Below are positions 27,477-41,852 of a stretch of 48,313 nt of DNA, piece after piece (within the stretch, counting starts at the first letter, position 1; every line of letters starts with the position of its first letter). The stretch is from the NCBI GenBank assembly GCA_031459765.1, contig JAVKHY010000016.1:1-48313 (forward strand). Reading direction: 5' to 3'. The position numbers and the translations under genes are program-made. The notes beneath the pieces are model-generated. The model was not told where the DNA came from, did not search any database, and worked only from the letters and a program-made list of their open reading frames with translations. This DNA is from Armatimonadota bacterium. GTDB lineage: Bacteria; Sysuimicrobiota; Sysuimicrobiia; Sysuimicrobiales; Kaftiobacteriaceae.

Positions 27477-27552
27477 TGGCGCGCCCGGAGGGATTTGAAC
27501 CCACGGCCTTCGGCTCCGGAGGCCGACGCTCTATCCGCTGAGCTACGGGCGC
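27477..27552 (-). tRNA. tRNA-Arg (anticodon CCG), CCA encoded
   Basis: On the minus strand the 76-base cloverleaf has acceptor GCGCCCG/CGGGCGC, discriminator G and a genome-encoded CCA at 27480-27477. The D arm has GCTC...GAGC, the anticodon stem TCGGC/GCCGA holds the loop CTCCGGA (anticodon CCG, reading CGG codons, frequent in this G+C-rich genome), and the T arm has GTGGG-TTCAAAT-CCCTC. All stems pair. Confidence 0.96.
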
Positions 27553-39556: not shown

Positions 39557-41533
39557 TCAGGTGATCTTCGCGCCCTTGGGGGCGTTCTTTTCCACCGTCA
39601 GCAGCGCCACCTGACCGTCCCACTCCGCGGCCAGCAGCATCCCGTGGGAGTCGACCCCGCGCACCCGCCGCGGGGCCAGGTTGGCCAGGACGATGATGCG
39701 CTTGCCGACCAGTTCCTCCGGGGTGTACTGGGGGATGAGCCCGGTGATGATGGTGCGCACCTCGGTTCCCAGGTCGATCCTAGCTTCGATCAGCTTGTCG
39801 GTGTTGGGCACCCGCTTCGCCTCGAGGACCTCGGCGACACGGATGTCCAGTCTGCGGAACTCTTCGATGGTGATGGTCTCTCCCACAGGCTCCTCCTCCG
39901 CCGGCTCCGTTTTCGGGGGCGTCGCCGGCCCAGGACCAGTCTGCGCCTCTCCGGCCTCCCGCACCTCGACCCGGTACTTCTCGATCCTGGGGAAGACCGG
40001 AGCGCCGGGACGGACCCGGGTCCCCGGGGGCACCGTCCCCTCCCGGGCATCCTCCAGACGCTGGGCCTCCAGCGGCACGCCGATCCCCAGCTGGTCCCAG
40101 ACGCGCCGGGTCGCCGCGGGCAGCCAGGGCGACAGGAGGATGGTGACCCCCCGGAGCACCTCGACAGTCTCGGCCAGGGCGGCGCCGGCCCGCCGGCGGT
40201 CCGTCCTGACCGTCCGCCAGGGCGCTTCCTCGTCCAGGAATTTGTTGGCCAGGGCCAGCAACCTCCAGATCTCGGCCAGCGCGCGGGTGAAGTCGAGACG
40301 CGAGAGGAGCGGATCCAGCGCATCGACCACCTCCGCCGCGGTCCGGCGCAGCGCCCCCGCCGTCCCGACCGCCGGCTCGGGCGGGGGAACCACGCCGCCG
40401 AAATGCCGTTCGATCTGCGGCAGCGTCCGGTTGAGCAGGTTCCCGTAATCGTTGGCCAGGTCGGCGTTGAAGCGGTGCACCAGCCCCGGCTTGTTGAAGT
40501 CCCCATCGGCGCCGAAGGGAATCTCCCGCAACAGAAAATAGCGGATGGCGTCCACGGCGATGTCCTGGTCTACACCGGCTTCCTGGGCGATCTCCCGGGC
40601 CAGGGCGGCCGGATCGATCACGTTGCCCAGTGACTTGCTGAACTTCTGCCCCCCGAAGGTGAGCCAGCCGTGGGCAAAGGTCTGCTGCGGGATCGGGATC
40701 CCGGCGGCGTGGAGCAGGATGGGCCAGTAGACGGCGTGGAACCGGACGATCTCCTTGCCCACCAGGTGGACGGTGGCCGGCCAGAAGCGGCGGAACCGTT
40801 CGCCGTCGGGATACCCCAGGGCCGAGATGTAATTGGTGAGGGCGTCGATCCAGACGTAGATGACGTGGCGGCGGTCGAAGGGCACGGGCACACCCCAGGT
40901 GAAGGTGGAGCGGCTGACGGAGAGATCGCGGAGTCCCGCACGCACGAAGGAGACGACTTCGTTCCGCCGCGCCTCGGGTTCGATCAACGCGGGATTCTCC
41001 TCCACGGCCCGCAGCCACCAGTCTTGGTACCTGGACAGGCGGAAGAGGTAGGATTCCTCCGACGTCCACTCCGTCGTGCGGCCCGTGTGGACCGGGCAGG
41101 TGCGGTCCGGACCGAGCTCCGTCTCCAGGTAGAACGACTCACAGGAGGCGCAGTACCAGCCCTCGTACCGCCCCGGGTAGATATCCCCCTGGTCGTAGAG
41201 CTTCTGGAACAGCAGGGCGGCCACGCGCTCGTGGCGGGGCTCCGTGGTCCGGATGAAGTCGTCGTACCTGATGTTCAGGACCTCCCACAGCCGTCGGAAC
41301 TCGGCCGCGATGCGGTCGCACCAGGCCTGGGGCGTCACCCCGTGCTGCCGGGCGGCGCGCTCGATATTGATCCCGTGCTCATCGGTGCCGGTGAGGAAGA
41401 AGGTCTCGTAGCCGGCCAGGCGTTTAAACCGCGCGGCCACGTCGGCGGCAATGGTGGTGTAGGCGTGCCCGATGTGCGGCACATCGTTCACATAGTAGAT
41501 GGGCGTCGTGATGTAGTAGGTCTTTCCGGCCAC
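39557..41533 (-). CDS. metG: Methionyl-tRNA synthetase
   Basis: A 658-residue class I synthetase. TYYITTPIYYVNDVPHIGHA carries the HIGH signature (residues 20-23); a zinc knuckle has CASC and CPVH; the KMSKS loop reads GQKFSKSLGNV. The anticodon domain follows, then a Pro/Glu-rich linker and a C-terminal tRNA-binding domain (FRRLDIRVAEVLEAKRVP...GMLLAAEW) of the OB-fold type that dimerises and grips tRNA. GTG 41533 is chosen because GAGGGG stands about 8 bases ahead and the family begins here; the frame upstream is T-box leader. It charges tRNA-Met. Confidence 0.95.
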   Translation of the reverse strand: MAGKTYYITTPIYYVNDVPHIGHAYTTIAADVAARFKRLAGYETFFLTGTDEHGINIERAARQHGVTPQAWCDRIAAEFRRLWEVLNIRYDDFIRTTEPRHERVAALLFQKLYDQGDIYPGRYEGWYCASCESFYLETELGPDRTCPVHTGRTTEWTSEESYLFRLSRYQDWWLRAVEENPALIEPEARRNEVVSFVRAGLRDLSVSRSTFTWGVPVPFDRRHVIYVWIDALTNYISALGYPDGERFRRFWPATVHLVGKEIVRFHAVYWPILLHAAGIPIPQQTFAHGWLTFGGQKFSKSLGNVIDPAALAREIAQEAGVDQDIAVDAIRYFLLREIPFGADGDFNKPGLVHRFNADLANDYGNLLNRTLPQIERHFGGVVPPPEPAVGTAGALRRTAAEVVDALDPLLSRLDFTRALAEIWRLLALANKFLDEEAPWRTVRTDRRRAGAALAETVEVLRGVTILLSPWLPAATRRVWDQLGIGVPLEAQRLEDAREGTVPPGTRVRPGAPVFPRIEKYRVEVREAGEAQTGPGPATPPKTEPAEEEPVGETITIEEFRRLDIRVAEVLEAKRVPNTDKLIEARIDLGTEVRTIITGLIPQYTPEELVGKRIIVLANLAPRRVRGVDSHGMLLAAEWDGQVALLTVEKNAPKGAKIT

Positions 41534-41549
41534 GGTCACCACCCCTCGA

Positions 41550-41817
41550 AAGACAATGCGCCCCTCGTCCGTGGGACGAGGGGCACCTCCTCGTGGTACC
41601 ACCCAGTTTCGCGCCGTACGCCTCGACGGGTGCGGGGCGTCGCCGCCCGACACCCTGGCCCGTTCACGGGAACCGCCCGGCGGGTCCTACTCGACCCTGC
41701 TCTTTCGGACCCGCAGCTCCGGAGCCATGTTCGCCGCCGTCCTCCCGCCGGCTTCCACCGCACCCGGCTCGCTTCAGGACCGGACAGACGGGTACTCCCG
41801 CTCCGTCACCGCTTGTG
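41550..41817 (-). promoter_or_regulatory. T-box riboswitch leader of metG
   Basis: The leader has the T-box core GGGTGGTACCACG at 41604-41592 on the minus strand, which would form the antiterminator with uncharged tRNA. Stem I features lie upstream: GAGCCGGG...GGTGGAAGCCGGC near 41772-41744, and a specifier-loop stretch GAACATGG with the Met codon ATG at 41728-41726. A terminator hairpin (41560-41584) follows the T-box. Low charged tRNA-Met should therefore raise metG expression. The 5' limit is set from the promoter; the structure was judged by eye, not folded. Confidence 0.88.
41560..41584 (-). terminator. Terminator hairpin of the metG T-box
   Basis: GCCCCTCGTCC and GGACGAGGGGC form an 11-bp perfect stem around a 3-base loop, followed on the minus strand by GCATTGTCTTTC. 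It lies just after the T-box core and about 27 bases before the metG GTG. Confidence 0.8.
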
Positions 41818-41823
41818 CGACCC

Positions 41824-41852
41824 ATTCTACTGGGGCAGAGGGGCAGCGTCAA
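41824..41852 (-). promoter_or_regulatory. Promoter of metG
   Basis: On the minus strand TTGACG (41847-41852), 17 bases, then TAGAAT (41824-41829): a near-consensus sigma-70 promoter about 7 bases before the start of the T-box leader. Confidence 0.75.

Follow-up and report, generated by a model that had tools for sequence, protein, structure and literature searches.

A predicted tRNA-Met T-box leader upstream of metG and a tRNA-Ala gene nested in a leucine T-box leader of the same genome

The window, that is the whole 48,313-nt stretch of DNA analysed here, carries the gene for methionine--tRNA ligase, metG, on its minus strand (NF008900, 800 bits against a cut-off of 598; TIGR00398, 500 bits). 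GTG at 41533 is the likely start codon from the sequence and was chosen because a Shine-Dalgarno-like GAGGGG (41547-41542) stands 8 nt upstream; GTG at 41539 is a possible alternative. We identified a T-box leader ahead of the gene, at 41852-41558 of the minus strand, with promoter, stem I, AUG specifier, core, antiterminator and terminator all in place. A first-pass annotation of this DNA had proposed a complete T-box unit before metG without naming a strand, and every element that it listed was found. The features of the locus are the following:

39557..41533, minus strand: metG, methionine--tRNA ligase
41824..41852, minus strand: sigma-70-type promoter TTGACG-17-TAGAAT, 10 of 12 consensus matches
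41558..41818, minus strand: T-box leader RNA, full RF00230 model (match proper 41818-41569)
41715..41813, minus strand: stem I, with AGC...GCU closing pairs, AGUA, AG-bulge GAGCCGG and distal loop GGUG
41726..41728, minus strand: specifier AUG (tRNA-Met), in the context GAAC-AUG-G-CUCCGGAGC
41592..41604, minus strand: T-box core GGGUGGUACCACG, exact match, with UGGU (41601-41598) opposite tRNA 5'-ACCA
41573..41604, minus strand: antiterminator GGG...CGAG / CUCG.CCC, from the covariance-model alignment, helix pairs in relatives
41558..41586, minus strand: intrinsic terminator, 13 bp, loop of 3, tail ATTGTCTTT

The promoter, at 41852-41824 and of the same sequence and spacing as first annotated, occurred once in 1.5 kb, compared with a mean of 0.1 in shuffled sequences. 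The core GGGTGGTACCACG, exact at 41604-41592, was the sole copy without mismatch in the 48-kb window. It is preceded by AA (GCGAAACUGGG), and the corresponding 5' side, CGAGG, is by eye one base off RRRNG; an RRRNG-stem III-AA motif is given as a T-box feature in a passage of the TBDB paper (PMC7778990). The terminator was also present, at 41586-41558, with a stem that we counted as 13 pairs rather than the 11 first annotated. Its 5' arm and the antiterminator have CUCGUCC in common. The terminator-bearing 3' part of the leader (55 nt) folded at -33.3 kcal/mol (z = -4.4 against shuffles), and the fold of the entire leader beat 200 of 200 shuffles (z = -3.4). The antiterminator strand, folded in isolation, favoured a different hairpin. 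The T-tract that follows the terminator (41557-41549) is weak, with 6 T in 9, and the G+C content is about 72%.

The first-pass annotation had named a covariance search with the Rfam T-box family as the check on its reading, and the lack of a T-box match as the outcome that would speak against it. RF00230 matched the leader over the full model (positions 1-219) at 63.8 bits and E = 1.5e-13 (1.7e-13 in the whole-genome search), though this is below the gathering score of 93. A gathering score is a curator's cut-off and not a biological feature. The default, gathering-level Rfam scan of the window returned no T-box, only a tRNA; it overlooked the metG T-box because the score lies under the cut-off, and the T-box was recovered by rerunning RF00230 with an E-value threshold. 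At the Rfam default cut-off, the same search would thus falsely have come out with no T-box match. The window also contains a tRNA-Arg gene (anticodon CCG) at 27477-27552 of the minus strand.

To follow the leader in relatives, we searched 41 genomes, the window's own and 40 related ones, for MetG and obtained a match in 38. The upstream DNA of 30 metG loci was read, and 29 were usable, one contig starting within the gene. A T-box core was located 150 nt or less from the MetG match in 17 of these 29 loci, the window counted, and was not found before metG in the other 12, one of which had only 219 nt upstream. A core-like regex match 681 nt before metG in locus L081 was dropped as too far away and apparently in coding sequence. 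One of the 17 leaders is on a contig that ends before stem I; the remaining 16, all that bear stem I, keep GAAC-AUG in register, which upheld the ATG specifier of the annotation (AUG at 41728-41726). A -35/-10 pair was present in all 16 relatives that reach far enough. RNAalifold analysis of the 16 aligned leaders gave 20 stem I pairs, in nine of which both partners vary and the pairing is preserved. For the 3' part, it found the terminator, three of its 10 pairs being supported by compensatory changes, and did not find the antiterminator, as is expected for a free-energy fold. Antiterminator pairs in the relatives were listed by a script, whose 'longest helix' rule took other pairings in some rows (e.g. 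G027). The reading that T-box-like motifs came together by chance in G+C-rich DNA, for which a score under the curated cut-off and a G+C content of about 72% might speak, is in effect refuted by the E-value of 1.5e-13, by a position and specifier conserved across 16 relatives and by the covariation. Long GTGAATAGTGA-like inverted repeats were seen between stem I and stem III in the metG T-boxes of G004 (L078), G009 (L075) and G008 (L076).

The genome has three CAT tRNA genes, namely the initiator, the elongator and a third that is perhaps tRNA-Ile2, judged by eye; all three end in ACCA. On the evidence of its anatomy, the mutual exclusion of its two helices, its conservation and covariation, and the presence of cognate tRNAs whose discriminator matches, the metG leader is almost certainly a class I (transcriptional) T-box riboswitch responding to tRNA-Met. 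By analogy with the known T-box mechanism, we infer that it binds tRNA and switches as follows. Uncharged tRNA-Met would make two contacts, its CAU anticodon pairing with the AUG specifier of stem I and its 3' ACCA end with the UGGU of the antiterminator bulge; the antiterminator would thus be stabilised, the 13-bp terminator blocked and metG transcribed. The 3' end of charged tRNA-Met would be unable to pair, so that the terminator would form and transcription would halt ahead of metG. In this way, methionine shortage would switch on the methionyl-tRNA synthetase gene.

The weak tail of the window's terminator (ATTGTCTTT) may make termination leaky. Tails of the metG leaders ranged from 2 to 8 T in 9, the window's being among the weaker: G012, G021, G005, G007 and G004 had 7 or 8 and the other eleven rows 2-6, where the lowest counts (G002, G009) were taken after a stem that the script had extended into the T-tract. 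If polymerase simply passed the 6 T in 9 found here, the leader could act mainly at translation start, in class II fashion, with the CCCCUCG arm masking the ribosome site. CGAGGGG indeed occurs twice, in the 3' arm of the terminator and in the Shine-Dalgarno-like stretch (41548-41542), and CCCCUCG could pair with either. We consider such a translational switch highly improbable, as five relatives carry 7 or 8 T in 9 and the metG terminator is far stronger than those of shuffled sequences.

For a transcriptional switch, the initiator and elongator tRNA-Met both carry CAU and ACCA, so neither is singled out as ligand by the sequence. The met T-box of Staphylococcus aureus, in the metICFE-mdh leader, resembles the present one in its AUG specifier and in its tRNA-Met ligand (predicted here), and is reported to prefer the initiator (PMC3771891). 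Sensing of initiator tRNA-fMet rather than the elongator is nevertheless rather unlikely for metG: the S. aureus T-box precedes a different gene set, metICFE, and the metG sequence offers no argument for the initiator. The two also differ in that the S. aureus leader controls methionine biosynthesis, with the initiator preference demonstrated, whereas the present one is predicted to control metG. Like the class I T-boxes of RF00230, it has AGUA, the AG bulge, the distal loop and the specifier loop in stem I, the core GGGUGGUACCRCG and an antiterminator/terminator switch, and it is placed before an aminoacyl-tRNA synthetase gene. It differs from them in that it scores below the gathering threshold, is very G+C-rich and belongs to a host outside Firmicutes and Actinobacteria. 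The metG T-box is real and ordinary in mechanism, a known kind of switch.

The closest named MetG records come from 'Armatimonadetes' MAGs (80, 75 and 71% identity), which ruled out a Firmicute or Actinobacterium as host; the suggestion that a T-box points to these two phyla was misleading here. The lineage is probably CSP1-3/Sysuimicrobiota, as inferred from the MetG neighbours and from a phylum of one order. Our sample of the host phylum comprised 43 genomes of one order, and CSP1-3/Sysuimicrobiota, once placed with Armatimonadota, is described as one class with one order (PMC11604079). A 2008 survey reported T-boxes from Firmicutes, Actinobacteria, Chloroflexi, Deinococcus/Thermus and Proteobacteria (PMC2494555). 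A literature search pairing T-box riboswitches with Armatimonadetes yielded no paper, and the term 'T-box' is absent from the accessible text of the Sysuimicrobiota paper (PMC11604079). RF00230 matched at E <= 0.001 in all 41 genomes searched in the lineage and exceeded the cut-off in 15 of the 41.

RF00230 matches the window's genome (2.8 Mb, 99% complete) at 12 sites, all below the cut-off. The genes that follow, as assigned by NCBIfam, are ilvB, thrS, DAHP synthase, valS, metG, ileS, ilvE-leuS, proS, glyQ, proC, alaS and pheS; ilvE-leuS was identified from its translation instead, with LeuS backed by a further check. Taking as specifier the codon that stands five bases before the NGAGC-like closing strand of stem I, with one and the same spacing throughout, yielded a cognate codon in all 12. 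The joint chance of this fit, 2.6e-15, is only indicative, because the spacing was fixed after the alignments had been seen and any of three amino acids was allowed for ilvB, aroF and ilvE-leuS. In each of the 12, UGGN also agreed with the tRNA discriminator base, even where it is not UGGU: thrS and glyQ have UGGA with U, and DAHP synthase (Trp) has UGGC with G. These 12 leaders for 10 amino acids make up a Firmicute-style transcriptional T-box regulon in an uncultured, G+C-rich lineage not known for T-boxes. All 12 are hidden by the Rfam default cut-off, suggesting that surveys relying on it under-count T-boxes in such phyla.

Some minor features were seen around these leaders. In the T-boxes of proS (L008 1426-1559) and alaS (L011 1501-1662), stem I is very short, yet its loop keeps the cognate codons CCC and GCC, respectively, at the usual spacing. 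A guanidine-I riboswitch aptamer (L001 1326-1430; 66.1 bits, over the cut-off) lies just 5' of the ilvB T-box, and a fluoride riboswitch-like match (L008 1678-1740, plus strand; 30.3 bits, short of the cut-off of 34) is on the other strand from the proS T-box.

Between stem I and the antiterminator of the ilvE-leuS T-box stands an entire tRNA-Ala(GGC) gene, its CCA encoded:

L007 1501-1819 (G000:C4:43421-43739): ilvE-leuS leader, specifier CUC, tRNA at 1694-1768

Of the 46 distinct tRNA genes found in the genome, no other has the anticodon GGC. This stretch folds as a 9-bp helix enclosing the cloverleaf, which indicates that the tRNA replaces the stem III loop. We then compared 27 leaders of the phylum sample (25 ilvE leaders and two more). 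A tRNA followed by a core, 11-112 nt apart, was present in 21 of the 27, in families f1-f5; in G012 the nested leader is directly 5' of leuS. The leaders of G029 and G038 have no tRNA, and the family f7 genomes examined carry the tRNA elsewhere, without a core. No second tRNA element was found inside other long T-boxes of the phylum at nine further loci (L203-L211). In G017 (L124), tRNA-Ala(GGC) lies about 120 nt upstream of the ilvE T-box and not inside it, possibly a rearranged state. In G016 (L135), G019 (L137) and G022 (L131), tRNA-Ala still stands before ilvE and the T-box core was not found; there the T-box seems to have been lost and the tRNA retained.

We then screened 400 genomes of the phylum to which a Chloroflexi MAG belongs for the same pattern, a tRNA 3' end and then a core. 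It occurred in 34 of the 400, compared with none for the reversed pattern used as a control. In all 34 the tRNA was Ala(GGC) and a LeuS frame came next; CUC stood at the fixed spacing in 28, and the other six showed GAACTC on reading. The AA step ahead of the core was present in 20 of 21 leaders of the host phylum and in 34 of 34 of the Chloroflexi MAG's phylum. A flank-joining helix next to the core, 7 pairs or longer, was found in 16 of 21 and 18 of 34, respectively, against 25% and 23% of shuffles. A stem III helix around the nested tRNA is thus likely in many leaders, and not equally clear in all.

The tRNA is Ala(GGC) in every case, in two phyla, and always within a leucine T-box before leuS or ilvE-leuS, so the arrangement looks old and selected. 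Judging from these sequences, we consider it quite likely that the leucine T-box is such a long-maintained, dual-purpose RNA, in which one tRNA is made at each round of initiation and another is sensed at the end to gate leuS. Each transcription of the leader would yield the nested tRNA-Ala irrespective of the T-box outcome, while the 3' end of the leader would sense the other tRNA and decide on leuS. RNase P and the 3' enzymes would excise the tRNA, and the sensor would thereby be severed from the mRNA after the decision. No description of a tRNA gene inside a T-box leader was found in a full-text literature search, which was judged by titles and the start of abstracts and covered few subscription journals; as far as that search shows, a tRNA gene conserved within a tRNA-sensing riboswitch would be a new architecture. 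It makes testable the role of stem III in sensing charging, the relation between tRNA processing and the life of the leuS mRNA, and the reason for a link between alanine and leucine.

The nested tRNA-Ala is not always the sole GGC gene: near-identical further copies exist in some genomes of the Chloroflexi MAG's phylum, e.g. at 99% in G366 and G373. In G366, G373, G170, G385, G391, G403 and G345, the nested tRNA is preceded at a distance of about 300-400 nt by a second tRNA-like match, which suggests that these genomes have a tRNA before the T-box as well.
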